Source: Lachnospiraceae bacterium
GTDB lineage: Bacteria; Bacillota; Clostridia; Lachnospirales; Lachnospiraceae
Reading direction: 5' to 3'
Assembly (NCBI GenBank): GCA_900199595.1
Contig: FZRB01000028.1
Span: 1-38,272 of the forward strand
Length of the DNA stretch: 38,272 nucleotides
Of this stretch, positions 20,510 through 36,437 are shown in pieces. The stretch's first letter is position 1. Every line of letters starts with the position of its first letter. The notes below the pieces were generated by a model. That model saw only the letters and a list, made by a program, of their open reading frames with translations. It was not told the origin of the DNA and did not search any database. Made by a program: the position numbers and the translations under genes.

Positions 20510-21745
20510 ATGAGTTTAAATGATACACCCTCCGGCGAAAGACTCCGCATCAGCTTCTTCGGAAAGCGTAATGCAGGAAAGTCCAGTCTTGTAAATGTAA
20601 TAACCAATCAGGAAATCTCTGTGGTATCCGATACTCTCGGAACAACTACGGATCCTGTTGTAAAGGCTATGGAGCTGCTCCCTCTGGGACCCGTCCTTAT
20701 CACGGACACTCCGGGCTTCGACGATCAGGGAACCCTTGGTGAACTTCGTGTAAGAAGAACAAGACAGATTCTTAACAAAACAGATATAGCAGTCCTGGTT
20801 ACAGATGCCACAAGAGCTATGGATAATTCTGAAAAAGAGCTTACTGAACTTTTTGAAAAAAAGAATATTCCATATATCATTGCAAAGAATAAATGCGATC
20901 TTATTGCTTCAAACGAGAATACTTCTGCTACAGAGACTAAAACAAACAATATAGCTGTAAATGAGATATATGTCAGCGCCACCGAAAGGATTCATATAGA
21001 AGAACTGAAGGAGCTTATAGGCCACCTTATTCCTTCTTCCGAAACCAATGTAAGGCTTGTGGGTGACATTATCTCCAAAAACCAGACCATAGTTCTGGTA
21101 ATCCCTATAGATGAATCCGCTCCAAAGGGCAGACTTATACTCCCTCAGCAACAGGCCATAAGGGATATCCTGGAAAGCGGTGCCTATGCAGTTACTACCA
21201 GAGAAACAGAACTGAAGGACCTGCTGAGTAACATGAGTCCAAAACCGGATCTGGTTATCACTGACAGCCAGGCCTTTGGGCAGGTAAATAAGGATACACC
21301 TGAAGATATAAAACTGACTTCCTTCTCTATACTGATGGCCAGATATAAGGGCTTCCTCGATACAGCAGTCATGGGAGCAAAGACCATAGACAGTCTGAAG
21401 GATGGGGATAAGGTTCTTATATGCGAGGGCTGTACCCATCACAGACAGTGTGGTGATATAGGAACTGTAAAGCTTCCTAAATGGCTGAAGGAAAGAACCG
21501 GAAAAGAGCTTGTCATCACTGCTACCTCAGGAAATGATTATCCCGATGATCTGTCTGAATATAGTTTGATAATTCATTGCGGAGGCTGCATGCTCAGCCC
21601 GCGTGAAATGATTTACAGGATGAAATGCGCTGAAGACGCCGGGGTTCCATTTACCAATTACGGCGTAGCCATTGCTTATATGAGAGGAATACTTGAAAGA
21701 AGTATAAGCGTATTTCCGGAGCTCCTGGAAAGATATAAGAAGTAA
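20510..21745 (+). CDS. hydF: [FeFe]-hydrogenase H-cluster maturation GTPase HydF
   Basis: 412 codons including the stop, from the ATG at 20510. An in-frame ATG at 20423 would put the leader hairpin inside the coding region and lacks a ribosome site, so it is rejected. The GTPase domain (1-170) has G1 GKRNAGKSS, G2 TTTDP, G3 DTPGFDD and G4 NKCD. A dimerisation domain follows, then the cluster-binding domain with CTH (in CEGCTHHRQC) and HCGGC, matching the CxH...HCxxC ligand set. HydF is the scaffold on which the 2Fe subcluster is carried and delivered to apo-HydA. It begins the long run that includes HydE, two nitrogenase-like sets and Hyp proteins. Confidence 0.96.
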   Translation: MSLNDTPSGERLRISFFGKRNAGKSSLVNVITNQEISVVSDTLGTTTDPVVKAMELLPLGPVLITDTPGFDDQGTLGELRVRRTRQILNKTDIAVLVTDATRAMDNSEKELTELFEKKNIPYIIAKNKCDLIASNENTSATETKTNNIAVNEIYVSATERIHIEELKELIGHLIPSSETNVRLVGDIISKNQTIVLVIPIDESAPKGRLILPQQQAIRDILESGAYAVTTRETELKDLLSNMSPKPDLVITDSQAFGQVNKDTPEDIKLTSFSILMARYKGFLDTAVMGAKTIDSLKDGDKVLICEGCTHHRQCGDIGTVKLPKWLKERTGKELVITATSGNDYPDDLSEYSLIIHCGGCMLSPREMIYRMKCAEDAGVPFTNYGVAIAYMRGILERSISVFPELLERYKK

Positions 21746-21776
21746 AAGTTTCAGAAAAGATATAACAGGTTTTAAA

Positions 21777-22823
21777 ATGTCAGATAATATAAAGCTTATT
21801 GATAAACTGAAAAATGAAAATACACTGTCAGGGGATGAATGGTTTTCTCTTCTGTCCAGTTTTACAGATGAAAACAGACTCTATGCAGCTAAGGCAGCCC
21901 GCGAGATAACAGACAGCATATATGGCAAGGATATCTATATCAGAGGTATAGTCGAATTCTCCAACATATGCAAAAATGACTGCTATTACTGCGGACTCAG
22001 AGCAGGGAACAGTAATCTGGAAAGATATAGACTTACTGAAGAAGAGATATATGAATGCTGCAAGGAAGGCTATGAATATGGCTTTCGTACCTTTGTGCTT
22101 CAAAGCGGCGAGGATCTGCATTTCGACACCGAAACCATATGCCGTATCATTTCCCGGATAAAGAATGATTATCCCGAATGTGCAATAACTCTTTCAATAG
22201 GTGAAAAAACTTACGAAGAATATAAAGCCTACAAAGAATCCGGTGCCGACAGATATCTACTAAGACATGAGACTGCCAATAAAGCTCATTATGAAAGACT
22301 GCATCCCGAAAATATGTCCTGGGACAACCGCATCAGATGTCTTTATGACCTTAAATCTCTCGGTTATCAGACCGGATGTGGAATAATGATTGGTTCACCT
22401 TATCAGACCACCGAATGCATCGTGGATGATATGCTCTTCATGGCAGACTTTAAGCCGGAAATGATTGGACTGGGCCCCTTCCTTCCACACAGTGACACCC
22501 CCTTCAGGGATGAGCCAAAGGGCTCCTATGAGCTCACACTTTTACTCATAAGTCTTTGCAGACTCATGCTGCCACATGCACTCATCCCCGCTACTACTGC
22601 TCTCGGCACCATAAAGCCACTGGGACGTGAAGAAGGCGTTCAGGCAGGTGCAAATGTAATCATGCCGAACCTTTCGCCTGTAGCAGTCAGAAAAAAATAT
22701 ATGCTCTATGATAACAAAATCTGCACCGGAGATTCCTCCGGAGAATGCAGAGGCTGCATAGAAAAAAGAATGGAAGTAATCGGCTATAACGTAGTTATAT
22801 CACGTGGTGATTTTAAAGCTTAA
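21777..22823 (+). CDS. hydE: [FeFe]-hydrogenase radical SAM maturase HydE
   Basis: 348 residues of radical-SAM TIM-barrel type with the CxxxCxxC motif CKNDCYYC (C65, C69, C72) for the SAM-binding 4Fe-4S cluster. A C-terminal Cys set (C-x7-C-x2-C in the segment CTGDSSGECRGC) marks the second cluster found in many HydE proteins. The length and the segments GEDLHFDTETI, LRHETANKAHYERLHP and GCGIMIGSPYQT agree with HydE rather than PylB or BioB. HydE acts on the Fe(CO)2(CN)(Cys) unit made by HydG, which is not in this window. It lies 31 bp after HydF and 31 bp before the first NifH-like gene. Confidence 0.95.
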   Translation: MSDNIKLIDKLKNENTLSGDEWFSLLSSFTDENRLYAAKAAREITDSIYGKDIYIRGIVEFSNICKNDCYYCGLRAGNSNLERYRLTEEEIYECCKEGYEYGFRTFVLQSGEDLHFDTETICRIISRIKNDYPECAITLSIGEKTYEEYKAYKESGADRYLLRHETANKAHYERLHPENMSWDNRIRCLYDLKSLGYQTGCGIMIGSPYQTTECIVDDMLFMADFKPEMIGLGPFLPHSDTPFRDEPKGSYELTLLLISLCRLMLPHALIPATTALGTIKPLGREEGVQAGANVIMPNLSPVAVRKKYMLYDNKICTGDSSGECRGCIEKRMEVIGYNVVISRGDFKA

Positions 22824-22854: not shown

Positions 22855-23601
22855 ATGATTAAATTTGCAATATACGGAAAAGGCGGAATAGGTAAATCTA
22901 CTCTGTCATCAAATCTAAGTGCAGCTTTTGCAAAATGTGGACTTAAGGTCATGCAGATAGGCTGTGACCCGAAAGCTGACTCAACCTCTCTCCTATGTCC
23001 AAAGGAAAAGGTTACCACTGTTCTGGATCTTGTAAGAAGCGGCAAGCCCTTCACTCTTCAGGACATGGTCAAGGAAAGTACTTCAGGAGTCCTCTGCGTT
23101 GAAGCCGGCGGACCTGTTCCCGGTCTTGGCTGTGCAGGACGAGGAATAATAAATGCCCTGGAATCACTGGAGCAAAAGGGTGCCTACGATTATTATAAAC
23201 CCGACATCGTAATTTATGATGTTCTGGGTGACGTAGTCTGCGGAGGCTTCACCATGCCTATGCGTAAAGGCTATGCTGACAAGGTTTATATAGTCACCTC
23301 CGGAGAAAAAATGGCTATCTACGCTGCTGCAAATATAGCCATGGCGGTAAATAACTTCAAGAAGCGTGACTATGCCAAGCTCGGGGGCATAATCCTTAAT
23401 TGCCGCGGTGTTGAAAATGAAGAAGAAAATGCTGCTACCCTTGCAGCGGATTTTGATACAGAGGTTCTTGCAACCATACCAAGAAGTCCGCTTTTTGAAA
23501 AAGCAGAGGCAGCAGGAAAAACTATTGTAGAACTTTATCCGGACAGCGATATCTGTGCGAAAATGATTGCACTTGCTGACAGAATCAAGATGTCTTTCTG
23601 A
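22855..23601 (+). CDS. NifH-like nitrogenase reductase homologue, set 1
   Basis: 248 residues with the full NifH/BchL/ChlL-type core: P-loop GKGGIGKST (8-16), switch I DPKADST, cluster-binding cysteines C93 (GLGCAGRG) and C129 ([11 protein letters not shown]), and the ADP-ribosylation-site-like Arg in CAGRG. These Cys positions match those that bridge the 4Fe-4S cluster between two subunits. It should be an ATP-dependent electron donor to the component-1-like proteins encoded next. It is shorter than NifH (about 275-295 residues). AGGAG lies 8 bases before the ATG. A second homologue is at 26985. Confidence 0.93.
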
Positions 23602-23652: not shown

Positions 23653-25047
23653 ATGATTAAATCATTATCCACAACTGAAAACAGAATGCCTGAACCTGTG
23701 AGACTCGCAGACATCGACTTTCCTTCTCCTTTTTATGAAGGACTTCAGTACAATGCCCCTGCAAGAGGTGTCTGGAATATCGTTCATACAGGAATGCTTA
23801 TTCCCGAGTCACATCAGGTATATGTCTGCGCCCAGGGATGTCTCCGCGGAGTTATTCTTACTGCGGCTGAAATGAATGAGATGAAACGTATGTCCTGGGT
23901 TGCCCTCAGAGAAAGCGATATGTGGAACGGTGAGATGGAGAACCGTGTCATAGACGGCACCTCTCATATAGTTGACCAGCTTGAAACAAAGCCAAGATGT
24001 GTGCTTATCTATCTCAGCTGCATGCATATGTTCGAAGGCTGTGATTTTAAAATGATCACTGATGAGCTTAACTTAAGATATCCCGACATAGATTTTGTAG
24101 AGTGTTACATGATACCTACTATGCGTAAGACCATGTCTCCGGATGCCATGATGAAAATCAGTCTGTATGAATCCGTTAAAAAGCTTAAACGTGATGACAA
24201 CCTTGTTGCAGTTATAGGAAATCATCTTCCTATTGATCCTTCTTCAGACTTATCCCAGCTTATCCAAATGTCCGGCAAAAAGCTGTGGGATATCACTAAC
24301 TTCAGAACCTACGATGAATACTTAAATCTCGGTTCGTCCGGAACACTTGTTTCCTTCTTATCAGTTGCTGATGCAGGTGCAAAGCAGCTGTCTGAAAGAC
24401 TGGACGGAAACTGGATTCGTGTTCTGCTTCGCTTTGATGAAGAAAAAACAGATCAGGGACTTCTTCTGCTGGGAGAAACTCTCGGACTAAAAAAAGATGT
24501 TATAAACGACTGGATTAAAGAACGAAAAGACAGTGCCTACGCAGCACTTAAAAAAGCTCACGATATAATCGGAAGCTGTGAGATAGCCATCGATTATACA
24601 GCTGTCCCTTATATCCTTGAACTCAGCGAGCTTCTTCTTAAATACGGCTTTAATGTTAAGAAAATCTTTGCGGATAATTTCCCTGCAGATGAGAAGAATT
24701 CTTTTGAAAGAATTATCAAAGATTATCCTCATCAGGACATAGAAGTATATCCGACTAATGAACCGGCCATGAGATTTGAGGCTTCAGGAAGGACAGACCA
24801 CAAAACTACCGATGGTCAGATATCAGAGAATGCGCTAATGAATGACCCCCGCATTCTCGCCATCGGACAGAAGGCTGCTTACTTTACAAACACTTCTTAT
24901 TTCGTAGATATAATAGAGGGTGGCGGAGCCTATGGCTATCAGGCTATAGAACGATTAGCTAATGACCTGGTAGAAGCTTACCTGTCACCAAAGGATACAA
25001 AGAAACTTATCAGTCACAAAGGATGGGGGTGCGAAAGCTGCCTATGA
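23653..25047 (+). CDS. Nitrogenase component 1-like subunit (NifD-like), set 1
   Basis: 464 residues of the nitrogenase/oxidoreductase component 1 superfamily. In the P-cluster region it keeps Cys at C59/C63 (VYVCAQGCLRG) and C123/C130 (LSCMHMFEGCDF), but the first ligand site (RGCAYAG in NifD) is not present: the corresponding segment is ARGVWN. The FeMo-cofactor Cys and His regions of NifD are not recognisable. The protein ends in GWGCESCL, a CxxC tail. Its partner starts inside its stop codon (ATGA). Probably the cluster-bearing alpha-type subunit of an uncharacterised reductase; substrate unknown. Confidence 0.88.
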   Translation: MIKSLSTTENRMPEPVRLADIDFPSPFYEGLQYNAPARGVWNIVHTGMLIPESHQVYVCAQGCLRGVILTAAEMNEMKRMSWVALRESDMWNGEMENRVIDGTSHIVDQLETKPRCVLIYLSCMHMFEGCDFKMITDELNLRYPDIDFVECYMIPTMRKTMSPDAMMKISLYESVKKLKRDDNLVAVIGNHLPIDPSSDLSQLIQMSGKKLWDITNFRTYDEYLNLGSSGTLVSFLSVADAGAKQLSERLDGNWIRVLLRFDEEKTDQGLLLLGETLGLKKDVINDWIKERKDSAYAALKKAHDIIGSCEIAIDYTAVPYILELSELLLKYGFNVKKIFADNFPADEKNSFERIIKDYPHQDIEVYPTNEPAMRFEASGRTDHKTTDGQISENALMNDPRILAIGQKAAYFTNTSYFVDIIEGGGAYGYQAIERLANDLVEAYLSPKDTKKLISHKGWGCESCL

Positions 25048-26393
25048 ATCAGACTGCAAGAATAATATCCATATATGCTGCAGACACCTCGGGCTTCTGC
25101 TCTGCTCTTTACGAGTATGGCGGAATGTCTGTAATACATGATGCTTCCGGCTGTAATTCAACCTATACGACTCATGACGAGCCAAGATGGTACGACATGG
25201 ACAGCATGATGTATATATCAGGACTCACCGAAAGCGATGCAGTAATGGGTAATGACGAAAAATTCATATCAGATCTCTGCCTGGCAGCCGAGGAACTGAA
25301 TCCGAAGTTTGTTGCCATCTGTGCTTCTGCTCTTCCTGCAATGGTGGGAATAGATATGCAGGCTATAGCTTATGAGGTGGAGAGCAGAACCGGCATACCT
25401 TCATTTGAGGTTAAGACAAATGCCATGCAGAGCTATATCACAGGAGCAGCCAATGCATTTGTTGAACTTGCCAGAAGATTTGCCCTGAGACAAGATGATA
25501 CAACTGACAGCAATGTATCTGTCCATGAAAACAAAAACACTATGTCAGATCAAGAAAACGAAAGTTCCCTGTCTGTCAAAGAAAACGGAAACACTTCTTC
25601 CATATCCGTAAATATCCTGGGACTTACTCCTCTGGATTTTCCTCTTTACAGCACAACAAAACTTATCAGACAGTGGCTGGAAAGTGAAGGATTCACGGTA
25701 AATGCATTTGTGGGAATGGATACAGATCTGGAAGATATCAGACGTCTTCCTAAGGCAGATGTAAATCTTGTTATTTCCTCTATCGGACGGCCACTGGCAG
25801 ATTATCTTATGAATGAATATGGGCTTCCTTATGTTATCGGAACCCCTTACGGAAAAAGCTTCGCAGGATATCTTGCAGATAAGCTTAGGCAATCTGCAGC
25901 TGATAAAAATAGCATAAATGCAGTCAAGCTCTGCAGAGAAGAAACAGCTTCCGGGTCTGGAAAAAACAGATCCGAAGAAAACATTTTCGAAGAAAGCAGG
26001 AATACTAAGATTTCTATCATAGGTGAAAGCATCCTGTCCACATCTCTTGCCGCTGCACTTTTGTTAGAAAAGGGAGTGCAGGCAAGGGTTCTGGAAAGTA
26101 TAGGTGATGGAGATATGTCGGTACTCAGAACCTCTGGTTCAGCCGACGCTGCCTTAATGAATTATGAAGAAAAATCTACTACACCTATGTTGTTTGATGT
26201 CTCCTGCACCGAAGAAGATGAACTGGAAAACGAGCTGTCAAAGTCTGACATCATAATAGCTGACCCTCTCTTCGAACCTATCTGCAGTGGAAAACATTTT
26301 ATAAGACTTCCTCACAGAGCATTTTCGGGAAGAACTTTTGACAGAGAAGAAAAACAATTGATTGGAGATATATCATATGTCACCAACAACTGA
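25044..26393 (+). CDS. Nitrogenase component 1-like subunit (NifK-like), set 1
   Basis: 449 residues, from the ATG at 25044 that overlaps the previous stop (ATGA). An in-frame ATG at 25023 is less likely. Three cysteines fall where the NifK P-cluster ligands are expected: C19 (SGFCSALYEYGG), C37 (ASGCNSTYTTHDEPRW) and C93 (AICASALPAMVGIDM). Residues about 150-190 are a low-complexity Ser/Asn/Asp/Glu linker. It is likely the beta-type partner of the protein at 23653. The THDEPRW segment is echoed in the second set (GFDEPRW). Confidence 0.87.
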   Translation: MNQTARIISIYAADTSGFCSALYEYGGMSVIHDASGCNSTYTTHDEPRWYDMDSMMYISGLTESDAVMGNDEKFISDLCLAAEELNPKFVAICASALPAMVGIDMQAIAYEVESRTGIPSFEVKTNAMQSYITGAANAFVELARRFALRQDDTTDSNVSVHENKNTMSDQENESSLSVKENGNTSSISVNILGLTPLDFPLYSTTKLIRQWLESEGFTVNAFVGMDTDLEDIRRLPKADVNLVISSIGRPLADYLMNEYGLPYVIGTPYGKSFAGYLADKLRQSAADKNSINAVKLCREETASGSGKNRSEENIFEESRNTKISIIGESILSTSLAAALLLEKGVQARVLESIGDGDMSVLRTSGSADAALMNYEEKSTTPMLFDVSCTEEDELENELSKSDIIIADPLFEPICSGKHFIRLPHRAFSGRTFDREEKQLIGDISYVTNN

Positions 26394-26973
26394 AATGTAC
26401 ATATTATGCGCCATACTATGCCTGATAGGATTCTTCTTCATGGGTCTTTGCTACTATACAGTGTTCTTCACAGAGAGTTCAGGTGCTCCTTTTATCGGAA
26501 GTATATTTGTTGCCATAGGCTTCCTCCTCTCTCCTTTTAAATGGCTTGCCCTTCTGGGACTGCTGGACTATGGTGTATGGGCACTTCCTCACGCTATAAT
26601 AAGTGAACATCTTGAATCAAAAAGAAGACAAAAGTTCTTTGATCCGTTTTATACCGAGAAGAATTATCAGGAAAGTAAGCACGATGAAACCAAGGCTATG
26701 TTTGTCAGAATTAAAGAGCGCGATGAAGAGCTTGAGTGGCCATACGTTACGAGGTCCACATACAGTCTGAACATCCCAAAGATTGTATTCTCTATATGCC
26801 TGGATAAAGCCGGAAACAGATTTCTTCTCACCGAAGAGCCTTATAAATCAAAGCAGATAAAGGTATATCCTTTTGATGAAGATATAATCACCGTCACCGA
26901 TCTTCCTACAAAAAAGGGAAATATGACGGTTGAAATCGAAGTACGTGATAACGAAAGAAATAATAACTCATAA
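26377..26973 (+). CDS. Uncharacterised two-helix membrane protein between the nitrogenase-like sets
   Basis: 198 residues. Two hydrophobic segments (about 6-30 and 37-65) are followed by a charged cytosolic part (about 75-198) with no recognised domain and no cysteine pair suitable for a cluster. The start chosen is the ATG at 26377, preceded by GGAG, rather than the TTG at 26362. The gene overlaps the end of the NifK-like gene by 17 bp and ends 11 bp before the second NifH-like gene, so it is firmly inside the operon. Possible roles are membrane tethering or metal/substrate transport; neither is shown by the sequence. Confidence 0.7.
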
Positions 26974-26984: not shown

Positions 26985-27746
26985 ATGATAAAAATAGCAA
27001 TCTACGGCAAGGGCGGTATCGGTAAGTCCACTGTGACCTCCAACCTCTCCGCAGCACTTGCCTCACTTGGAAAAAAAGTAATACAGATCGGATGTGATCC
27101 CAAAGCGGATTCCACCGCAAATCTTCTGAATGGCGAGCCTGTAACTCCCGTTATGAATTACATGCGTGAACTGGATGAAGAACCCACTTCTCTCGACCAG
27201 ATCACAAGGGAAGGCTTCGGCGGTGTTGTATGTATCGAGACCGGAGGTCCCACACCGGGACTGGGGTGTGCAGGACGTGGTATAATCACTACATTTTCCC
27301 TGCTGGAAGAACTGGAGCTGTTTGAAAAATATAAACCGGATGCTGTTCTCTATGATGTCCTCGGTGACGTTGTGTGCGGCGGCTTTGCCGCTCCCATACG
27401 CGAGGGTTATGCCGAAAAGGTCCTTATAGTTACATCCGGCGAAAAGATGGCTCTCTATGCCGCAAATAACATCAATACAGCCGTAAAGAATTTTGAGGAC
27501 AGAAGCTATGCCAAGGTCCGCGGTATCATAATGAACCGTCGTGCTGTGGAAAATGAGGAAGAAAAGGTTCGCGCCTTTGCCGATAAGGCCGGTCTGGAAA
27601 TAATAGCCGACATCCCCAGAACCAATGACATAATCCACTACGAAGATATGGGTAAAACCGTAATCGAAGGAGACCCTTCACTGGAAGTAAGCAAGCGATT
27701 CTTAGATCTTGCCCAGCTTCTTATTGATGAGGATGAAAACAACTAG
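26985..27746 (+). CDS. NifH-like nitrogenase reductase homologue, set 2
   Basis: 253 residues and clearly paralogous to the set-1 protein. It has P-loop GKGGIGKST (8-16), DPKADST, C95 (GLGCAGRG) and C131 ([11 protein letters not shown]). The conserved segments [12 protein letters not shown] and [10 protein letters not shown] correspond to [12 protein letters not shown] and [10 protein letters not shown] in set 1. It should hydrolyse MgATP and pass electrons to the second component-1 pair. AAAGGA precedes the ATG. Its lower bound lies 33 bp before the next start. Confidence 0.93.
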
Positions 27747-27779
27747 AGCTTCTCTGTGAAGCTTACCTGTGAGGTACAT

Positions 27780-29066
27780 ATGACAAGCAACGCATTTTAT
27801 AAAACTGCAAAAGAACTGGCTGAGCTGGGACTTGCCGGACTGCCTTCTGAGATGAAAAGCTCCGACCATCTGATCTACAGCTCTCCTGCTACACTCTACT
27901 TCAATTCACCCGGTGCTAAGGGCTTTGGAGTTAAGCGTGCCGGACTGGCTGTACCGGAATCGGTAATGCTTCTGGTATCACCGGGCTGCTGCGGAAGAAA
28001 TACTTCTCTTTTCAGAAGTGCACCCGAATACAAGGATAAATTCTTCTTCCAGCTACTGGATGACACAGACATAGTTACAGGAAGACATCTGACCAAGATA
28101 CCCGAAGCCTGTGAAGAGATACTTACTGTTCTGGATAAAAAACCTTCAGCCATAATGATCTGTATAACCTGCGTGGATGCACTTCTTGGAACTGATATGG
28201 AGCGTATCTGCAAGAAGGTTACCGAACGTACCGGTCTTCCGGCTGTAGCCTGCTACATGTATGCACTAACACGTGAGAAAAGGCTTCCTCCTATGGCTGC
28301 GGTAAGAACTGCTGTTTACAGTCTTCTTGAAAAGGATGAGAAGGTTCCTCAGGACATGAACATCATGGGATATTTTTCTCCTCTTTTCAACAGTTCGGAG
28401 ATCTATCCTCTGATGAAATCCATCGGAATAAAGAATATCAGAGAAATAGCAAGATGTAAAACCTTTGATGAATATAAGGAAATGTCACGTGCCAATTTTA
28501 ATCTCGTGCTGAATCCCGAAGCCAGAGCCGCTGCTCAGGATATCCAGGAGAGACTGGGAATACCATTTATCGAGCTTCTCAGACTTTACAGACCGGAAAA
28601 GATTCATAACCAGTATAAGCTTCTGGGAAATGCACTGGGTGCTGACATAGATGACTCCTCTTACTATGAAAAAACAAAGAAAGTCATCAGAGAATTCAAA
28701 GAAAAGCACGGTGCCGTCAGCTTCTCGGTAGGTGAGATACAGAACGGAGATCCTATCGACATTTCCCTGATGCTGCTTGAAGAAGGCTTTAAGGTTCCCG
28801 AGATCTTTGCGACCATCGGAGAACTAAACTACCGCCTGCTGAGGCCACTGGCAGAGCTGAGTCCGGACACAAAGATATACTCAAACCTTTCTCCTACCAT
28901 GATGTTCTATGAAGAGGAAAAGGTAGACATGTACATCGGTTCAGACTGCAAATACTATCACCCCGATACTCCGGGAATCGAATGGTGCGACGACAAACAG
29001 CCCTTCGGTTACGATGCAGTGATCAAACTATTCGAACAATTAGACCAGAACACAAAAAAAAGATGA
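27780..29066 (+). CDS. Nitrogenase component 1-like subunit (NifD-like), set 2
   Basis: 428 residues, counted from the ATG at 27780 (GAGGT ahead); an in-frame GTG lies 24 bases upstream. Cysteines in the P-cluster-like region are C70/C71 (VSPGCCGRN) and C128/C131 (ICITCVDALLGTDM), the latter aligning with the TCPxGLIGDD segment of NifD. As in set 1, the first NifD P-cluster Cys has no equivalent (GAKGFGV). The segment aligning around the NifD FeMo-co Cys (LNPEARAAAQDIQERLGIPF) lacks Cys. The protein ends in GIEWCDDKQPFGYDAVIKLFEQL. It is a divergent, uncharacterised member. Confidence 0.87.
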   Translation: MTSNAFYKTAKELAELGLAGLPSEMKSSDHLIYSSPATLYFNSPGAKGFGVKRAGLAVPESVMLLVSPGCCGRNTSLFRSAPEYKDKFFFQLLDDTDIVTGRHLTKIPEACEEILTVLDKKPSAIMICITCVDALLGTDMERICKKVTERTGLPAVACYMYALTREKRLPPMAAVRTAVYSLLEKDEKVPQDMNIMGYFSPLFNSSEIYPLMKSIGIKNIREIARCKTFDEYKEMSRANFNLVLNPEARAAAQDIQERLGIPFIELLRLYRPEKIHNQYKLLGNALGADIDDSSYYEKTKKVIREFKEKHGAVSFSVGEIQNGDPIDISLMLLEEGFKVPEIFATIGELNYRLLRPLAELSPDTKIYSNLSPTMMFYEEEKVDMYIGSDCKYYHPDTPGIEWCDDKQPFGYDAVIKLFEQLDQNTKKR

Positions 29067-29114: not shown

Positions 29115-30236
29115 ATGAAGAAATTACTAAAGTATTTATCTCCCTTCGCGCCGGATCAGTCCGGTGCAAGCGGTGTTTTATATGAGCTGGGCGGACTCAT
29201 CGTTATCTGTGACGCCGGTGGCTGTGCAGGAAATATCTGCGGTTTTGATGAGCCCAGATGGTTCACCCAAAAAAGCGCAGTATTCAGCGCAGGCCTCAGA
29301 GATATGGATGCAATAATGGGACGTGATGACAGGCTTATAGCTAAGCTGAAAAGTGCTCAGGAGTCCCTTAACTGCTCCTTCTCTGCCATCATCGGAACTC
29401 CGGTTCCTGCAGTTATTGCAACTGACATGAAGGCGCTTAAAAGAATGGCTGAAAAAGGCCTTGGTATACCAAGTATAACCATAAGCTGTGACGGCACAAA
29501 ATATTACGACAAGGGTGAGGAAGATGCATGGCTTGCTCTTTTCCGGGAGTTTGTCGGTAAAGCTCCAATCAGCGGTGCAGATGATAGCGGTAAAGAAAAC
29601 TCCGATTCAAATACCGAGAAAGAGCTGATCGGAATCATCGGTGCAACACCTCTTGAAACAGGTTATTCATCCGATACTCCTCTTAAGGATGCACTTAAGA
29701 CGGCCGGTATTAATAATGCTCTTATTTACTCTATGGGGGCCGGGCTTTCCGACATATCAAATGCCGGAAATGTTTCAAAAAATATTGTTGTTAGTGCACA
29801 GGCGCTAAAGACAGCCCAGTATCTTAAAGAAACATATGGCACACCTTATGAAGTCGGATATCCATTTATCCCCGACTCTGTGGTTTCTGCCGTAATAAGC
29901 AAAATAAATAATAAGCATAAAAAGATCCTTATACTGCATTCTCAGTTTGCCGCTAATGAACTGAGAACCATAATAAGGAGTTTTCATAGTAACAGAGTAT
30001 CCTCTGATGACCTTCAGATAGACTGTGCAACCTTCTTCATGCAAAGTCCTGACTACAAAGAGGAACAGGATTATATGCTATCTGATGAAGACGAGCTCTT
30101 TGAACTCGCTTCCGAAGAGCGCTACGATCTGATAATAGGCGACGGCGACCTGCAGCCTCTTCTTAAAGCCGCAGGTTATAGAAGAGACTTTATTGATTAT
30201 CCTCACTTCGCCATATCAGGACGCACTAACGACTAG
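29115..30236 (+). CDS. Nitrogenase component 1-like subunit (NifK-like), set 2
   Basis: 373 residues, shorter than the set-1 partner because the acidic linker is reduced. It keeps C37 (AGGCAGNICGFDEPRW) but has Ala at position 18 (SGASGVLYELGG) and Gly-Thr near 94-95 (IIGTPVPAVIATDM) where set 1 has P-cluster-type cysteines. Two extra cysteines, C32 and C42, flank C37. The cluster chemistry must therefore differ from that of set 1. GGAAGA lies ahead of the ATG. The 48-bp gap to the NifD-like gene holds an imperfect inverted repeat (TGACA...TGTCA). Confidence 0.86.
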   Translation: MKKLLKYLSPFAPDQSGASGVLYELGGLIVICDAGGCAGNICGFDEPRWFTQKSAVFSAGLRDMDAIMGRDDRLIAKLKSAQESLNCSFSAIIGTPVPAVIATDMKALKRMAEKGLGIPSITISCDGTKYYDKGEEDAWLALFREFVGKAPISGADDSGKENSDSNTEKELIGIIGATPLETGYSSDTPLKDALKTAGINNALIYSMGAGLSDISNAGNVSKNIVVSAQALKTAQYLKETYGTPYEVGYPFIPDSVVSAVISKINNKHKKILILHSQFAANELRTIIRSFHSNRVSSDDLQIDCATFFMQSPDYKEEQDYMLSDEDELFELASEERYDLIIGDGDLQPLLKAAGYRRDFIDYPHFAISGRTND

Positions 30237-30283: not shown

Positions 30284-32665
30284 ATGATTACCAACAACAT
30301 AAGAGTATATGGCATCGTTCAGGGTGTCGGCTTCAGACCCTTTGTAAGCCGTGTATGTCTGGAAAACAACATAAAAGGAACCGTATCCAACAGGGGCTCT
30401 TATGTGGAAATATTTGCCCAGGGAGAAAATGTACCGGAGCTCTTTTCCATGCTTTATTATAATGCCCCAGACCGTTCCATGATCCTGAATGTCATTAACA
30501 AAATGGTAGATCTTCCACCATTTGAAAATTTTGAAATAATAGAAAGTGAAAAGGATACCGGAGATATATTTGTCTCTCCTGATATCGCTATCTGCGATAA
30601 ATGTAAACAGGAGCTTTATGACAAAAATAACCGCCGCTACCTTCACCCCTTCATTAACTGCACAAACTGCGGTCCCAGACTCACAATTCTAGACAACATG
30701 CCTTATGACCGCGAGCGCACCAGTATGAAACATTTTAAAATGTGTCCTCAGTGCGAATATGAATATACTCATCCTGAGACAAGACGATATGATGCGCAGC
30801 CCGTGTGCTGCCCTGAGTGTGGACCTGAAGTTTACCTGCTTAAGAAGCAGTCTGATCAAAATCAGGAGTCGAAAACTGGAAAGCTCATTTCTACTGATAT
30901 AAAGGGCAGAGAAGCCATCAGTCTTATCAGAAAAGCGATCACTGAAGGAAAGATATGTGCCATTAAAGGAATAGGCGGTTATCACCTCTGCTGCGACGCC
31001 ACTAATGAAGCCGCAGTCTCAAGGCTGAGACTGCTTAAGCATCGTCCCATGAAGCCCTTTGCAGTTATGATGAGGGATACAGATACTGTAAAAAGAAATT
31101 GTGATATATCGTGCAGTGAAATGTATGAGCTGCTGACAGGCCATGAGAAGCCCATAATACTTATGGACAGAAAAGAGATTTCAAACCTTGCTCCATCTGT
31201 CGCACCGGATAATCCGAAGGTGGGAGTAATGCTGCCCTACACTCCTGTGCACTGTCTGCTCTTTGATTATGACGATGAATATGAGATTTCCGACTGTCTT
31301 GTCATGACAAGCGCAAATGCATCCGGAGCCCCCATTTGCAGGACCGATGAAGATGTTATAAGTGAAATATCCGGCTTTACAGATTATGTCCTATCAAATA
31401 ACAGAATCATCCTGACCAGAGCCGATGACTCTGTAATGGATTTCTATAAAGAAAAACCATATATGATAAGACGCTCCAGAGGATTTGCTCCTCTGCCGAT
31501 AATGATAGGTAAAGGCGAGAATGAATCCGCTGAAAAAGCTAAAAATCTGAAGGGCCACGTTCTTGCCATTGGCGGAGAGCTTAAGAATACATTTGCCATA
31601 GCAAAGGATAATCTGATATATCCATCAGCATATGTTGGTGATATGGAGGATATCAGAACAATGGATGCCCTGGTTGAATCAGTTAAACGAATGGAAGAGC
31701 TTCTCGAGGCAAAGCCATCAGTAGTTGTATGTGACATGCATCCGAAGTATAATACTACTGCTGTCGCCGAATCCCTGGAACTTCCGGTGATAAAAGTTCA
31801 GCATCACTATGCACATATACTTTCGTGCATGGCAGAGAATGATTACCTGGACGAAGTTATCGGTGTATCCTTTGATGGAACGGGTTATGGAACCGACGGA
31901 ACCATCTGGGGTGGAGAATACCTGCTCTCAAGACTTGATGGTTTTGAAAGACTTGGAAGTATCACTCCGTTTATTCAGTCCGGCGGTGACCTTTCTTCTA
32001 AAGAAGGCTGGAGAATTGCAACGTCCATTCTGGGGGACTTCAATAATCCTGAGATATCCGAGCTGGAAAGACTTAATGGAATAAACAAAAACGATATCAC
32101 TTCACGACTTGGTCTATGCTCTGAAATGGAATATGATATGCTTTCAAACATGGCGAGAAACGGCATAAACAGTATACTCTCAACCAGTGCAGGAAGACTG
32201 TTTGATGCTGTAAGTGCAGTACTTGGTATCAGAAGAAGCTCTACCTTTGAGGGAGAAGCATCTACTTCTCTGATGTTTGAGGCAGAAGCATTTCTGAAGA
32301 AAACAGGGAAGCTGAATCAGGACATATCTAATTCTATCGAAGGAATCGGATATGACACCAACAGACTTGTTAAAGATATAGCATATAAGTATTTAGAAGG
32401 AATAAGTAAAGACAAACTAGCATATTATTTTCATCTCGGACTCGCTGAAATAATTACTGAAAACTGCATAAATTTCAGTGCCGATACGGGAATAAAAACC
32501 GTTGCTCTAAGTGGTGGTGTTTTTCAGAACAGACTTCTGCTTGGACTTGTGGATGATAAATTAGAAAAAAAAGGGTTCAGAGTACTTCGTCACAGTCTGA
32601 TCCCACCTAATGACGGTGGTTTATGTGTTGGTCAGGCGCTGGCCGGAATGTACAGAAATAGATAA
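30284..32665 (+). CDS. hypF: Hydrogenase maturation carbamoyltransferase HypF
   Basis: 793 residues with all HypF parts: an acylphosphatase domain (about 1-90, VQGVGFRPFV), two zinc fingers built from four CxxC pairs (CDKC, CTNC, CPQC and CPEC, about 106-182), a YrdC-like domain (about 205-390, KGIGGYHLCCDA and KHRPMKPFAVM) and a Kae1-like domain (about 415-793, QHHYAHILSCM, FDGTGYGTDGTIWGGE, LSGGVFQN). It uses carbamoyl phosphate and ATP to make the carbamoyl group placed on HypE, the source of the CN ligands of the hydrogenase iron. AGGAG precedes the ATG. The length is usual for HypF. Confidence 0.97.
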   Translation: MITNNIRVYGIVQGVGFRPFVSRVCLENNIKGTVSNRGSYVEIFAQGENVPELFSMLYYNAPDRSMILNVINKMVDLPPFENFEIIESEKDTGDIFVSPDIAICDKCKQELYDKNNRRYLHPFINCTNCGPRLTILDNMPYDRERTSMKHFKMCPQCEYEYTHPETRRYDAQPVCCPECGPEVYLLKKQSDQNQESKTGKLISTDIKGREAISLIRKAITEGKICAIKGIGGYHLCCDATNEAAVSRLRLLKHRPMKPFAVMMRDTDTVKRNCDISCSEMYELLTGHEKPIILMDRKEISNLAPSVAPDNPKVGVMLPYTPVHCLLFDYDDEYEISDCLVMTSANASGAPICRTDEDVISEISGFTDYVLSNNRIILTRADDSVMDFYKEKPYMIRRSRGFAPLPIMIGKGENESAEKAKNLKGHVLAIGGELKNTFAIAKDNLIYPSAYVGDMEDIRTMDALVESVKRMEELLEAKPSVVVCDMHPKYNTTAVAESLELPVIKVQHHYAHILSCMAENDYLDEVIGVSFDGTGYGTDGTIWGGEYLLSRLDGFERLGSITPFIQSGGDLSSKEGWRIATSILGDFNNPEISELERLNGINKNDITSRLGLCSEMEYDMLSNMARNGINSILSTSAGRLFDAVSAVLGIRRSSTFEGEASTSLMFEAEAFLKKTGKLNQDISNSIEGIGYDTNRLVKDIAYKYLEGISKDKLAYYFHLGLAEIITENCINFSADTGIKTVALSGGVFQNRLLLGLVDDKLEKKGFRVLRHSLIPPNDGGLCVGQALAGMYRNR

Positions 32666-32741: not shown

Positions 32742-32954
32742 ATGTGTGTAGGACTTGCTGCAAAAGTAGTAAATGTCAAGGATGGTACTGCGATTATCGA
32801 TGCAGGCGGAGCAAAGAGAGATGTAAGTGCTGAGCTTCTTGAAGATCTTGAGCCGGGCGATTATGTTATGGTTCACGCCGGTGTTGCTATTGCTAAAATC
32901 ACAGATGATGATGCCAATGAAACTATGGGTATCTTAAAAACTCACGCAAGATAA
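32742..32954 (+). CDS. hypC: Hydrogenase maturation chaperone HypC
   Basis: 70 residues of the HypC/HupF family: N-terminal MCVG with the essential Cys2, then an OB-fold-like body (GTAIIDAGGAKRDVSAELL, GDYVMVHAGVAI). HypC pairs with HypD to assemble the Fe(CN)2CO unit. TAGGAGG lies 8 bases before the ATG. A 76-bp AT-rich gap separates it from HypF, the largest gap inside the run, so a second transcription start could lie there. Confidence 0.95.
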   Translation: MCVGLAAKVVNVKDGTAIIDAGGAKRDVSAELLEDLEPGDYVMVHAGVAIAKITDDDANETMGILKTHAR

Positions 32955-32966
32955 GGATGATTTAAA

Positions 32967-33443
32967 ATGGTTGGATTAATAGTAGCACGTTCAGAAAACA
33001 ACGTGATTGGAAAAAACGGAATGATTCCCTGGAGAATAAAGGGTGAACAAAAACAGTTTAAAGAACTGACCACAGGAAATATCGTGGTAATGGGTAGAAA
33101 GTCTTATGAGGAGATCGGTCATCCTCTTCCTAACAGAGAAACTATAGTTGTTTCAAGAACAAAGAAGTATGAGGGAGAAAATCTTTCTACAGCTTCATCT
33201 GTACAGGAAGCAATTGAAATGGCCGGTACTGATAAGAATGTATATATATCCGGAGGATATGGTCTGTATAAGGAAGCATTACCACTGGTCGATGTAATGT
33301 ATATCACAGAAGTTAATACAGTTATAGAAGACGGTGATGTATTCTTCCCGGAGTTCAATGCAGATGATTTTGATATCACCATCGGTGAAACAGGTGGTGA
33401 TGAGATTACATTTACCAGAACTACTTATACGAGGAAGAAATAA
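32967..33443 (+). CDS. Dihydrofolate reductase-like protein
   Basis: 158 residues with the DHFR fold features: VARSENNVIGKNGMIPWRI, MGRKSYEEI (NADPH-binding), TIVVSRT and ISGGYGLYKEAL. The length matches bacterial DHFR. It may reduce dihydrofolate or a related pterin. Its place between HypC and the DUF89/HypD genes is unusual. The stop overlaps the next start by one base (TAATG), showing translational coupling. The catalytic acidic residue of DHFR is replaced or shifted in the WRIKGEQKQFKEL segment compared with the usual W-x-x-P-x-D(E), so activity should not be assumed. Confidence 0.85.
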   Translation: MVGLIVARSENNVIGKNGMIPWRIKGEQKQFKELTTGNIVVMGRKSYEEIGHPLPNRETIVVSRTKKYEGENLSTASSVQEAIEMAGTDKNVYISGGYGLYKEALPLVDVMYITEVNTVIEDGDVFFPEFNADDFDITIGETGGDEITFTRTTYTRKK

Positions 33444-34288
33444 TGCGAATATCCGAGAGCTGTGCTAAATGTCTCTATGACAGGCAGAAAGAAAAGACTG
33501 ATAACGAGGAGTACCTTGCTGAGGTTAAACGAATAATTGATGAAAGAGGCGAAAATGACACCAGCCCTTATCTGGTTTATCTGTTTAATAAAACACATGA
33601 GAGAATGTTTGGCAGCAGCGCAGACTATAAAGAAATAAAAAAACAATATAACGATTTGGTGCTTGGAATGGAAAGTAAGCTCAGGGCGGAGATTGAGGAT
33701 TCTAAGAATCCGTTAGCGAAGTCACTTGTTGCAGCACGTATCGGAAATTACATAGATTTTGGTGCTATGAATCACGTGGACCAGAATGAATTCTTATCGC
33801 TGTTTGATGATATCGATATGACATCTGATGGTGACATTCTGACTTACGAGAGTTTTATAAAGGAATGTACGCAGGCTAAAAGATTTCTTCTGATTACAGA
33901 TAACTGTGGAGAAATTGTATTAGATAAATTAATGCTGGAACAGCTTAAGAAGAGATTCCCTCATTTAGATATTAAGGTTATGGTTCGTGGCAAAGATGTC
34001 CTTAATGATGCAACTCTGGAAGATGCAGAATATTCAGGTATTAATGAAATTGCAGAGATTATCTCCAATGGAGAAGCCATTGCGGGAACTGTATATGACA
34101 TGCTTCCGGAAGATGCAAAGAAAGCATTTGATGAAGCGGATGTAATTCTTGCTAAAGGACAGGGAAACTATGAATCAATGTATGGTCAGGGCTTTCATGC
34201 ATTTTATGAATTCTTATGTAAGTGCGAACTCTTTACAAGCAGATTCGAAGTGCCAAGACTGACAGGTATTTTTATTGAAGATAAATAA
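33443..34288 (+). CDS. DUF89 (damage-control phosphatase/ARMT1-like) protein
   Basis: 281 residues. An N-terminal CxxC (C8, C11: SCAKCLYD) marks the prokaryotic subgroup of DUF89. The metal and catalytic residues are present: LITDNCGEIVLDKLM (Asp and Asn) and ADVILAKGQGNYES. DUF89 proteins are metal-dependent phosphatases proposed to remove damaged phosphometabolites. Being translated from a start overlapping the DHFR-like gene and followed by HypD 59 bp later, it is part of the Hyp operon here. The link may be to a phosphorylated intermediate, an inference from position. Confidence 0.88.
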   Translation: MRISESCAKCLYDRQKEKTDNEEYLAEVKRIIDERGENDTSPYLVYLFNKTHERMFGSSADYKEIKKQYNDLVLGMESKLRAEIEDSKNPLAKSLVAARIGNYIDFGAMNHVDQNEFLSLFDDIDMTSDGDILTYESFIKECTQAKRFLLITDNCGEIVLDKLMLEQLKKRFPHLDIKVMVRGKDVLNDATLEDAEYSGINEIAEIISNGEAIAGTVYDMLPEDAKKAFDEADVILAKGQGNYESMYGQGFHAFYEFLCKCELFTSRFEVPRLTGIFIEDK

Positions 34289-34347
34289 AACAGGGAAAAA
34301 AGGCTTATGAATTATGGGATGACGAGCTAAAGGAAGGAAAATAAATC

Positions 34348-35406
34348 ATGAGTGAAATAATTGAAAATGCAAGAGAGATAATAACGGGGTATAAAGGCAG
34401 AAAACTCCGAATCATGGAAGTGTGCGGAACACATACCCATGAGATATTCCGTCTGGGAATAAGAGGTCTTCTTCCTGAAGATGTAGACCTTATATCCGGT
34501 CCCGGATGTCCGGTATGTGTAACTCCGGTTGGATTTATAGATGAAGCTATCTTCCTTGCCCTTGAGAAAAAATGTACTATCTGTACTTTCGGTGATCTGA
34601 TAAAGGTTCCGGGTACTACAATGAATATGGCAGGAGTACGAGCAGAAGGTGCAGATATCCGCCCTGTATACTCTCCTGATGATGCAGTGGAACTTGCAAA
34701 GGATAATCCGGATATGGAGGTGGTGTTCCTTGCAGTCGGATTTGAAACTACTACCCCATCAGCCTGCCTTGCAGTTAAGAAGGCAAAACGTCTGGGACTT
34801 AAAAACTTCTCAATCCTGACTGCGAATAAAACCATGCCAAACGCTTATGCAAAGCTTAAGAACAGTGCAGATGCATTTCTCTATCCGGGACATGTTAATG
34901 CCATAACAGGAACTGAAATCTGTGAGAAGCTGAAGGATGAAGGTGTTTCCGGAGTAGTTGCAGGCTTTACTGCAAATGAGCTCATGACTGCACTTGCGGT
35001 AACAATAGATAACCTCTCAAAGGGTGAACCATTCTTTGAAAACTGCTATCCAAGAGTCGTACGGCCTGAAGGAAATCCGGCGGCTAAGAAGCTTATGGAC
35101 GAAGTAATGGAACTATGTGATACAGAGTGGCGTGGTCTTGGAATAATAGAAATGTCAGGTCAGAAGCTTAAGAGTGAATATGCCGATTTCGATGCAAGAA
35201 TAAAGCATGATATTCCTGATATTACAGGAAAGCCAAATCCGGCCTGCAGATGCGGTGAAGTTCTCCAGGGTAAATGTAAGCCATCAGATTGTCCAATGTT
35301 CGGAAAAGCCTGCACACCGCTTCATGCAGTAGGTGCATGTATGGTATCAGATGAAGGCGCCTGCGCTGCATATTACACTTATGGAGCTTCAATAGGATTA
35401 CAATAA
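34348..35406 (+). CDS. hypD: Hydrogenase maturation protein HypD
   Basis: 352 residues with the HypD signatures: EVCGTHTHEIFR, GPGCPVCVTP, the TFGDLIKVPG segment, GFETTTP, LYPGHVNAITG and the C-terminal Cys cluster motif (CRCGEVLQGKC, then DCPMFGKACTP). HypD carries a 4Fe-4S cluster and, with HypC and HypE, reduces and transfers CN to iron. AAAGGAAGG lies ahead of the ATG. It precedes HypE by 26 bp. Confidence 0.97.
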   Translation: MSEIIENAREIITGYKGRKLRIMEVCGTHTHEIFRLGIRGLLPEDVDLISGPGCPVCVTPVGFIDEAIFLALEKKCTICTFGDLIKVPGTTMNMAGVRAEGADIRPVYSPDDAVELAKDNPDMEVVFLAVGFETTTPSACLAVKKAKRLGLKNFSILTANKTMPNAYAKLKNSADAFLYPGHVNAITGTEICEKLKDEGVSGVVAGFTANELMTALAVTIDNLSKGEPFFENCYPRVVRPEGNPAAKKLMDEVMELCDTEWRGLGIIEMSGQKLKSEYADFDARIKHDIPDITGKPNPACRCGEVLQGKCKPSDCPMFGKACTPLHAVGACMVSDEGACAAYYTYGASIGLQ

Positions 35407-35432
35407 AAAATTATAGATAGAGGAAAAATATT

Positions 35433-36437
35433 ATGGAAGATAAAATAACACTTGCTCATGGTGCCGGAGGAGTTCAGACATCAGATCTTATAGGAAATCT
35501 ATTTAAAAAACATTTCAGTAACCCATATCTTACAGCTGACGACGCTGCAGTGCTTGATATGACACCGGGAAAGATTGCCATGTCTACAGATGGATTTATC
35601 GTTTCTCCTTATGAATTTCCGGGAGGAAATATAGGAAAGCTTTCAATCTGTGGAACAGTAAATGATGTGGCCTGTATGGGTGCAAAGCCGGAATATCTTA
35701 CATGCTCATTCGTTATAGAAGAAGGCTTCCCTGTTGCTAAGCTTGAAGAGATAGCCGAAGCAATGGGAAAAACAGCAAGAGATGCCGGAGTATATCTTGT
35801 TGCCGGTGATACCAAAGTTGCCGGAAAAGGACAGGTTGATAAGGTATTCATTACAACAACAGGAATCGGTCATATCATAGAAGGAGCTTCAACTTCAGGT
35901 GCATTTGCAAAACCCGGAGATAAGATCATTGTAACCGGAGATATCGGACGTCATGGCTGTACAATTCTTCTTGCAAGAAACGATTTCAAGATCGATGCAG
36001 ATATAACAAGTGACTGTGCACCACTTAATAAGAACATAGAAGCAATGCTTGAGGCCACAAAAGATGTACATGTTATAAGAGACGCAACACGTGGTGGTGT
36101 AGGTACAGTTCTCTATGAAATAGCAGCTGAAAGCAACGTAGGCATATCTCTCGACTCTGAGAGTATTCCGGTTCAGGATGGTGTAAGAGGTGTATGTCAG
36201 ATGCTCGGACTTGAACCACTGTATCTTGCATGCGAAGGCAGACTTGTAATCTTTGCTCCTGCTTCTGAAGCAGATAAGATTCTGGAAGCTCTGCATGGAT
36301 GTCCAAATTCAGAAGGCGCATGTATTATCGGAGAAGTTACAGAAGAAAATGTCGGAAAAGTAATTCTTAATACCGCTGTCGGCGCAAAAACATTTCTCGC
36401 CAGACCAAGCGGAGAACTACTCCCCCGTATCTGCTAA
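35433..36437 (+). CDS. hypE: Hydrogenase maturation protein HypE (carbamoyl dehydratase)
   Basis: 334 residues of the PurM/SelD-like ATP-binding fold. It begins with ITLAHGAGG, contains TADDAAVLDM, STDGFIVSPYEFPGG, TRGGVGTVLYEIA and the dehydratase residues, and ends in ...LLPRIC, with the C-terminal Cys that is carbamoylated by HypF and dehydrated to thiocyanate. The intact tail indicates a working enzyme. The last gene of the cluster, it overlaps the convergent YfiH-type gene by 4 bp, with no terminator between them. Confidence 0.97.
   Translation: MEDKITLAHGAGGVQTSDLIGNLFKKHFSNPYLTADDAAVLDMTPGKIAMSTDGFIVSPYEFPGGNIGKLSICGTVNDVACMGAKPEYLTCSFVIEEGFPVAKLEEIAEAMGKTARDAGVYLVAGDTKVAGKGQVDKVFITTTGIGHIIEGASTSGAFAKPGDKIIVTGDIGRHGCTILLARNDFKIDADITSDCAPLNKNIEAMLEATKDVHVIRDATRGGVGTVLYEIAAESNVGISLDSESIPVQDGVRGVCQMLGLEPLYLACEGRLVIFAPASEADKILEALHGCPNSEGACIIGEVTEENVGKVILNTAVGAKTFLARPSGELLPRIC

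Follow-up and report, generated by a model that had tools for sequence, protein, structure and literature searches.

The subject of this analysis is a 38,272-nucleotide stretch of DNA from a rumen bacterium of the Lachnospiraceae (contig FZRB01000028.1; hereafter the window), and in particular a block of genes at positions 20510-36437. The block combines the [FeFe]-hydrogenase maturases HydF and HydE with two sets of nitrogenase-like proteins, each consisting of a NifH-like ATPase (H) and two component-1-like subunits (D and K), and with HypF, HypC, HypD and HypE of [NiFe]-hydrogenase maturation. HydG makes the Fe(CO)2CN synthon from tyrosine, and HydE and HydF finish the [2Fe] cluster; in the [NiFe] pathway HypEF make cyanide from carbamoyl phosphate and HypCD hold Fe(CN)2CO. 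In this bacterium the gene set appears to replace HydG, and probably does so by means of the two nitrogenase-like machines and the [NiFe]-hydrogenase parts. From the sequence comparisons described below, the probability that the module as a whole takes the place of HydG in H-cluster maturation is estimated at roughly 0.72. The genes of the block, and the regulator gene that precedes it, are as follows.

20510-21745, + strand: hydF (the longest open reading frame runs from 20423; the ATG at 20510 is placed as the start by the hidden Markov model match and by relatives)
21777-22823, + strand: hydE, radical SAM maturase
22855-23601, + strand: H1, NifH-like ATPase of set 1
23653-25047, + strand: D1, component-1-like subunit of set 1, with a C-terminal CxxC tail
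25023-26393, + strand: K1, component-1-like, partner of D1
26362-26973, + strand: orphan open reading frame of 203 amino acids, no family found; an insert outside the core (2/79 relatives)
26985-27746, + strand: H2, NifH-like ATPase of set 2
27756-29066, + strand: D2, component-1-like subunit of set 2, with an in-frame ATG at 27780
29115-30236, + strand: K2, component-1-like, partner of D2
30284-32665, + strand: hypF
32742-32954, + strand: hypC, product starting MC
32967-33443, + strand: dihydrofolate reductase, an insert outside the core (4/79 relatives)
33443-34288, + strand: DUF89/ARMT1-type phosphatase, an insert outside the core (1/79 relatives)
34348-35406, + strand: hypD
35433-36437, + strand: hypE, product ending PRIC
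18730-18975, + strand: TM1266-family 'iron-only hydrogenase system regulator', separated from hydF by two genes and found within the cluster in many relatives

All genes of the block lie on the + strand, with gaps of 9-76 bases or overlaps of at most 32. An earlier note on this DNA had listed HydF, HydE, two NifH/D/K-like triplets and HypF/C/D/E on one strand, and all of these are present. The NCBIfam scores (cut-offs in parentheses) are 559.9 bits (325.6) for HydF, 557.4 (254.6) for HydE, 737.6 (466.1) for HypF, 65.2 (48) for HypC, 396.3 (192.8) for HypD and 426.0 (251.6) for HypE. In Pfam, H1 and H2 match Fer4_NifH (289 and 301 bits) and the D and K proteins match Oxidored_nitro only (D1 46.7, K1 98.9, D2 95.4 and K2 62.9 bits). 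The named genes form the core of the block as it had been drawn; the orphan, the dihydrofolate reductase and the DUF89/ARMT1 gene fall outside the conserved set. The last two were considered as a folate-based source of CO and rejected on their rarity among relatives.

The source genome (3.49 Mb, estimated as 100% complete) has no HydG over the cut-off of 312 bits. Two proteins in the whole genome match the HydG profile. The one at 178 bits is ThiH (511 bits, cut-off 380), flanked by open reading frames that we take to resemble ThiG and ThiE, and the one at 71 bits is HydE itself; beyond these two there is no profile match at E 0.001. The genome does encode an [FeFe]-hydrogenase (HydA) above the group-A cut-off (521 bits vs 406). 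Its closest solved chain is 7q4v, and the TSCSPGW and SSCKSP motifs are identical in both. HydA with H-cluster motifs is also present in G220, G217, G227, G225, G219 and G238. No match to the [NiFe] large subunit (PF00374) was found in the source genome. With both HydG and PF00374 absent, HypCDEF are without a visible usual client and HydA, HydE and HydF are without their usual source of CO and CN. The same genome also encodes a protein of 694 amino acids (L004, 328-2412) in which an [FeFe]-hydrogenase-like domain is followed by a GGDEF diguanylate-cyclase domain, a candidate sensor of H2 or redox state.

The family survey consists of 200 genomes, about one per genus, searched with D1, HydG, PF02906, PF00374, HydF and HypD. 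Fourteen genomes are D1-positive, and in the 13 besides the source genome the protein is 32-44% identical to D1 of the window (E <= 4.6e-50). G048 (E 1.0e-50, 28% identity), which also lacks HydG, was excluded because its protein lies outside the D1 clade. HydG exceeds its cut-off in 100 of the 200 genomes and in none of the 14 that carry D1. Among the 118 HydF-positive genomes HydG occurs in 0/13 with D1 vs 96/105 without it (Fisher 7e-12, with kinship ignored); four HydG-positive genomes have no HydF over the cut-off. D2, located by the D1 search and in the fetched regions, is present in 12 family genomes, all of them HydF-positive. HypD is over its cut-off in 31/200 genomes. PF00374 is matched by 19 of these, mostly over no more than its first 70 positions, and is without a match in the other 12. 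Eleven of these 12 carry D2. The exception, G051, has HypD and HypE (L104, 3-2246) with no match to PF00374, D1 or D2, and its HypD groups with NiFe-linked HypD.

Family regions around module genes were fetched and compared by BLAST. Both sets and HypFCDE occur together in G025, G124, G159, G183 and G191, where their usual order is H2-D2-K2-HypF-HypC-HypD-HypE-TM1266-H1-D1-K1. HydF and/or HydE join the cluster, or its part on that contig, in G025, G069, G071 and G083; H1 was not found in the fetched regions of G069 and G083. In G117, G134 and G175, set 1 is accompanied by a FecCD-type importer. D2 and K2 are fused in G071.

These observations were extended by searching named genomes with the D1 alignment. 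The best 79 loci were kept, so this set leans towards the kin of the window, and some of them end at a contig edge; 572 of the 596 listed stretches encode a relative, so the true total is at least 572. By the names and phyla filed in their records, the carriers include Lachnospiraceae, Ruminococcus bicirculans 80/3, Clostridium ljungdahlii ERI-2 and Clostridiaceae BL-3, as well as metagenome-assembled genomes (MAGs) of Lentisphaeria and Victivallales and one of Spirochaetaceae. Many are MAGs for which no completeness is given; the MAG label is absent from R. bicirculans, C. ljungdahlii, AC2031 and BL-3. The nearest named relative among the matches listed is L121, a sheep omasum MAG filed as Eubacterium sp., with a D1 98% identical to that of the window. 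Set 2 and/or Hyp genes are found in 59 of the 79 loci, a FecCD-type importer in 14, both in none and neither in 6. HydE, HydF or TM1266 is present in 76/79 loci and HydG in 0/79, and no HydE, H, D, K or Hyp gene was recognised on the opposite strand in any of the 79. H1 and D1 are fused in two loci (L141 and L163), and in a Victivallales MAG (L171) the order is HydA-HydF-H1-D1-K1-H2-D2-K2-HypF. A lack of conservation as a block in other genomes had been named beforehand as a refuting result, and the comparison did not give it: these genes, with their orientation kept, are found again in many genera and, going by record titles, in several phyla. The HydF/HydE/HDK/Hyp block is thus a conserved module and not a chance neighbourhood.

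A genome-wide search for HydG was made for 50 of the 79 named carriers, consisting of 42 with set 2/Hyp, 7 of the importer type and 1 undetermined. HydG is over the cut-off in 1/50, and in 0/42 of those with set 2/Hyp. All 50 match PF02906 (G211 at just 113 bits). PF00374 is matched by 5/50, four of these over the first 68-69 positions only, and by none of the other 45. The residues that we take as signatures of the Hyp proteins are intact throughout: PRIC in 46/46 HypE (including that of G051), MCVG in 55/55 HypC, and CGTH and GPGCPVC in 52/52 HypD.

The place of HydG is taken in gene neighbourhood as well as in occurrence. Among 37 loci around HydG, HydF is present in 34, HydE in 27 and TM1266 in 21, and all three accompany HydG in 16; no H/D/K or Hyp gene of the module sets was found in any of the 37. 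In the carriers, H1D1K1 lie among the HydF, HydE and TM1266 partners that HydG has elsewhere. The HydE alignment comprises 27 sequences from HydG-positive genomes, 47 from module carriers (two loci, L128 and L140, end before set 2) and 7 others. At 100 of the 109 positions that are at least 90% conserved in HydG-type HydE, the module type has the same residue at 90% or more, an agreement that makes it probable that module HydE receives the same substrate. Because HydG is absent while HydA, HydE and HydF remain, and the residues of HydE are kept, the evidence points to the known H-cluster being made by an undescribed route.

In a tree of 61 of the 81 HydE sequences (20 near-copies or long rows were removed by hand), the presence of HydG switches at least 8 times (6-8 in bootstraps), and at least 3 of these switches are forced by well-supported branches. 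HydE of C. ljungdahlii sits on a very long branch, so its position is unsure. The HypD tree contains 25 module sequences (12 from the family and 13 hand-picked from the 44 named loci with HypD) and 19 others, namely 18 NiFe-linked HypD and the lone HypD of G051. Of the two HypD copies in G069, the block copy alone was included. A branch supported at 100/100 separates module HypD from the 19 others. Taken together, the switches in the HydE tree and the separate HypD clade make the Hyp/HDK module look like a transferable unit plugged into resident HydE and HydF.

Among the nitrogenase-like proteins themselves, the best NifH scores are 299.0 (H1) and 310.6 bits (H2), below the cut-off of 394.35, and D1, K1, D2 and K2 are below every nif cut-off. 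The CfbC cut-off of 402 is not reached by either H protein (299.3 and 296.4 bits), nor are those of BchL and BchX of protochlorophyllide and chlorophyllide reductase. The term 'NifHDK-like' in the earlier note therefore holds for the nitrogenase superfamily and for none of the nif, bch or cfb families within it. AlphaFold models of D1 and D2 have a mean predicted local distance difference test (pLDDT) score of 87.2 and 86.2. Their best 50 Foldseek rows are component-1 folds with a TM-score (query length) of 0.56-0.68 at 10-18% identity, including NifK, NifN, NifE, VnfK, methylthio-alkane reductase (9fmg and 9d9u) and DPOR. In profile searches D1 is nearest to NifE, and D2 to the nitrogenase alpha chain and then NifE. 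The cysteine ligand of the iron-molybdenum cofactor (FeMo-co), which we take to be Cys275 in NifD, is not conserved: in the profile alignments the NifE/NifD cysteine stands opposite a leucine in D1 and an asparagine or a gap in D2. As for the P-cluster cysteines, D2 C79 and C139 and D1 C123 align with cysteines of NifE. Further invariant cysteines are D1 C59 and C63, D2 C78 and C136, K1 C44, and K2 C37 and C42. Invariant cysteines of this kind could bind an Fe-S cluster where D and K meet. The C-terminal CxxC pattern of D1 occurs in 78/92 sequences and ten of the 14 misses end in CESC; the tail is not quite universal, being absent from L082, L088 and L146.

Six HDK proteins encoded next to FecCD-type importers, three of them from genomes without HydF, surround the D1 clade in a midpoint-rooted tree. 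This nesting suggests that the ancestral role concerned a compound taken up from outside. Other NifH/D/K-like sets lie beside FecCD-type importers in L090, L099, L100, L101, L102 and L103, in genomes with or without HydF, and these sets are perhaps ancestral to D1. Weakly D1-like proteins of G004, G048, G059, G072, G143 and G152 were considered as members of the module and rejected, as they fall outside the D1 clade; all six of their loci carry a FecCD-type permease and ATPase, and G072 and G143 have HydG.

The region upstream of hydF contains three further features.

20331-20359, + strand: promoter-like site, TTAACA-17-TATAAT, 11/12 (proposed on position only, as shuffles give as many sites)
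20387-20437, + strand: leader-RNA element, two GA/AA internal loops flanking a covarying 4-bp stem (R2 50.9 bits, E 1.2e-10, with its own sequence in the training set)
20461-20486, + strand: terminator-like hairpin and T run, an attenuator candidate directly 5' of hydF

The hairpin and its T run end 23 bases upstream of hydF. Such hairpins, with changed stems, are found upstream of hydF in 16/22 named and 0/5 family loci examined. The motif 5' of the hairpin reads CCUGA-YRUC-RAAA ... UUGA-GAYR-AAAG. Its strict stem-paired pattern occurs in the window and in 12 other loci, all of them carriers, and not at all in one mononucleotide shuffle of 2.9 Mb. When the window and the 79 loci were scanned with a first covariance model, built from these 13, every one of the 61 matches at E <= 1 lay on the operon strand; a second was built from 53 aligned matches, and the counts include training sequences. 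The second model raises the named loci with a leader match at E <= 0.02 to 64/79, from several phyla (for example L117 6667-6724, L141 7830-7872 and L154 5574-5617), comprising 49/59 with set 2/Hyp, 12/14 with the importer and 3/6 others. The best matches in the 37 HydG-positive loci have E 0.27 (model 1, L213) and 0.61 (model 2, L207). There are 59 alignment cells changed on both sides of a helix, all in the 4-bp stem; the alignment was fitted to the structure, and 0/500 shuffles score as high, while slid controls give 0-18. A clear match also lies 5' of HydF-HydE in G142, a HydG-negative genome with an NMT1/SsuA-type importer, and weak matches occur at the expected place in G175 (E 0.049) and G183 (E 0.19). 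The C. ljungdahlii locus has no match. No Rfam leader family is over its gathering score at 20300-20520, the best being PyrR (25 bits vs 54), so a known riboswitch was rejected as the identity of this element and the motif is new. The leader is read as an attenuator, acting as a riboswitch or under the control of a protein, that would regulate HydG-free maturation in one large part of the carriers. A Clostridiales-1 RNA (Rfam RF01699, 85 bits) lies at 18529-18682 on the - strand, ahead of the TM1266 gene and on the opposite strand to it.

A possible sequence of events can be drawn from these observations, with much less confidence in the chemistry and order of each nitrogenase-like step than in the replacement as a whole. 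HypF and HypE would form CN ligands from carbamoyl phosphate, and HypC and HypD would build a low-spin iron unit bearing CN and CO, as is established for these families. H2 with D2K2 may then remodel the Hyp iron unit with ATP-driven electrons, for example by swapping CN for CO or by producing CO from CO2; set 2 tracks the Hyp genes where there is no [NiFe]-hydrogenase. H1 with D1K1, in the usual place of HydG, might finish the unit, and HydE would receive an Fe(CO)2(CN)-type synthon such as HydG would supply. HydE and HydF would complete the [2Fe] cluster and load HydA, as established elsewhere. Most relatives without Hyp (14/20 named loci) have a FecCD-type ABC importer and may take up a precursor from outside. 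The lack of any locus shared by set 2/Hyp and the importer (0/79) gives the strongest hint that the two supply one thing, made inside the cell or imported. Much of what the earlier note proposed fits these findings, namely an Fe-CN/CO unit from Hyp, HydE and HydF acting on its product and ATP-driven steps in between; its 'new cofactor' finds no support. A combined and more specific version is only tentatively put forward: the nitrogenase-like enzymes might convert the Fe(CN)2CO of the [NiFe] pathway to the Fe(CO)2CN of the [FeFe] pathway and so link two separately evolved maturations, cells without Hyp might import an organometallic precursor released by neighbours, and the riboswitch-like leader might control several of these variants.

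A further importer is found beside HydF and HydE in G181, G142 and G048, all HydF-positive genomes without HydG or D1. It is of the NMT1/SsuA type (L091 4718-7278, L092 3681-6187 and L097 5098-7742), and the three are 52-55% alike; in the 37 HydG-positive loci there are just two permeases, at 24-26% identity. This importer may offer a third route by which the precursor is acquired.

Several observations weigh against replacement of HydG by the module. Nine HydF-positive family genomes have neither HydG over the cut-off nor D1 (G011, G047, G048, G114, G122, G128, G142, G167 and G181). One of them, G047, has a HydG fragment (262 bits), and in G167 a short contig carries set 2 and HypD, the weak D1 match of this genome being its D2. 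Conversely, G175 has D1 and no HydF. Hyp is not universal among set-1 carriers: HypD is absent genome-wide in the D1 genomes G117, G134 and G175, and 20 named loci have set 1 with no set 2 or Hyp, 14 of them with a FecCD-type importer. The product of HypCDEF is Fe(CN)2CO, whereas HydE is thought to need Fe(CO)2CN. The HydG search among named carriers covers 50/79 loci, all from those nearest to D1 of the window, and one of these genomes (G246, locus L168, importer-type, with set 1 and no set 2/Hyp at the locus) has a full HydG. C. ljungdahlii has a full-length [NiFe] large subunit. HydA of the L171 cluster (1582-3393) passes the group-A cut-offs and is without the MPC motif. The leader RNA is absent from 15/79 named loci and, at E 0.02, from 12/13 other family D1 genomes, G134 being clear. 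HydA genes also occur without HydF, so HydA alone is no proof of maturation; its use as such proof was rejected, as PF02906 is matched in 185/200 family genomes and HydF is over the cut-off in only 118. An example from the same genus as the window is G160, with a group-A6 HydA (L222 2378-4147, 862 bits), no HydF over the cut-off and no match to HydG, D1 or HypD.

The loci without Hyp leave some room for a narrower reading, which overlaps with replacement by the whole module and is possible though doubtful. Here set 1 alone would replace HydG. A compound that is imported or salvaged would be the source from which it makes or unloads the CO/CN synthon, and Hyp with set 2 would be one of several possible suppliers. 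The FecCD-type importers beside set 1 (14/79 named loci, and G117, G134 and G175) and the nesting of D1 among importer-side HDK proteins are consistent with this. The importer is not specific, however, since a FecCD-like permease lies between HydG and HydF in G072, and in six set-1 loci both the importer and set 2 are missing. Loci with set 1 and no Hyp would also fit two independent systems side by side, with HydE and HydF maturing HydA at a low level from environmental or enzymatically released CO and CN, as PMC9431212 proposes, and Hyp and the nitrogenase-like sets serving another purpose, such as a [NiFe] enzyme that escaped detection. The weak HydG-free activation by HydE and HydF cited in PMC9431212, and the [NiFe] large subunit of C. 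ljungdahlii, also favour such an arrangement. Nevertheless it seems unlikely, given the lack of a PF00374 match in the source genome and in 45/50 named carriers, the separation of module HypD from NiFe-linked HypD (with the block copy only of G069 in the tree), and the presence of D2 in 11/12 genomes that have HypD and no PF00374 match.

It is slightly less probable still that the block builds a new cofactor for an undescribed enzyme and that the loss of HydG is incidental. D1 and D2 have no close solved relative, which speaks for it; the replacement of HydG by the module in both occurrence and gene partners lowers the probability of this reading, and HydE is unchanged at its conserved sites. 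Finally, HydG might be present and diverged past recognition, and radical SAM proteins with HydG-like C-terminal cysteines are listed for these acetogens in PMC9431212. This is very improbable. The HydG profile reaches far relatives, as it picks up ThiH (178 bits) and HydE (71 bits), and it finds nothing else in the source genome at E 0.001; in C. ljungdahlii (4.4 Mb searched, contigs <3 kb missing) its sole match is HydE. Replacement of HydG by the module as a whole is thus the preferred reading.

Comparison with known systems places the module between several of them. It resembles HydE/HydF/HydG maturation in having HydE and HydF over their cut-offs, HydA, the TM1266 regulator and the same gene partners, but differs in that, by occurrence and neighbours, H1D1K1 with or without H2D2K2-HypFCDE stands in for HydG. 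HypF, C, D and E are over their cut-offs with intact signature residues, as in HypABCDEF maturation of [NiFe]-hydrogenase, whereas no [NiFe] large subunit is found in the source genome or in 45/50 named carriers, and module HypD stands in a clade apart and is linked to nitrogenase-like genes. The NifEN scaffold, which is component-1-like and acts in cofactor assembly, is, by profile, the solved protein closest to D1 and one of those closest to D2; unlike it, D1 and D2 do not conserve the FeMo-co cysteine, and identity over the models is 10-18% (Foldseek). CfbCD, DPOR, COR and methylthio-alkane reductase share the combination of a NifH-like ATPase with a component-1-like pair, but the H proteins of the window score below the CfbC, BchL and BchX cut-offs. 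We know of no member of these four systems that is tied to hydrogenase maturation, and none came up in the literature searched.

All CO and CN of the H-cluster are held to come from HydG (PMC3105041). A 2022 study (PMC9431212) reports HydE and HydF with no HydG in C. ljungdahlii, C. carboxidivorans, AWRP and C. coskatii, and HypCDEF without HypA or HypB in C. ljungdahlii and four others, with hypEDCF given as CLAU_RS01730-01745. For C. autoethanogenum, C. drakei and C. scatologenes it puts forward candidate HydG proteins. Its own scenarios for the missing HydG are an atypical HydG or free diatomics, and its accessible portion makes no link to nitrogenase-like genes. Titles and opening lines of abstracts, with few subscription journals among them, contain no link of nitrogenase-like genes or of a riboswitch to H-cluster maturation, and the main text of a C. 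autoethanogenum transposon sequencing study (PMC9004356) does not, as far as it is available, mention the module genes.

If the replacement of HydG is borne out, it would explain the missing HydG and the presence of HypCDEF without HypA or HypB in C. ljungdahlii and its relatives, which PMC9431212 reports and leaves unexplained. It would also give a role to two nitrogenase-like protein families and provide a new means of producing [FeFe]-hydrogenases. A sizeable share of anaerobic H2 metabolism, in Lachnospiraceae, Ruminococcus, acetogens and Lentisphaeria, would then rest on an undescribed, non-homologous pathway.

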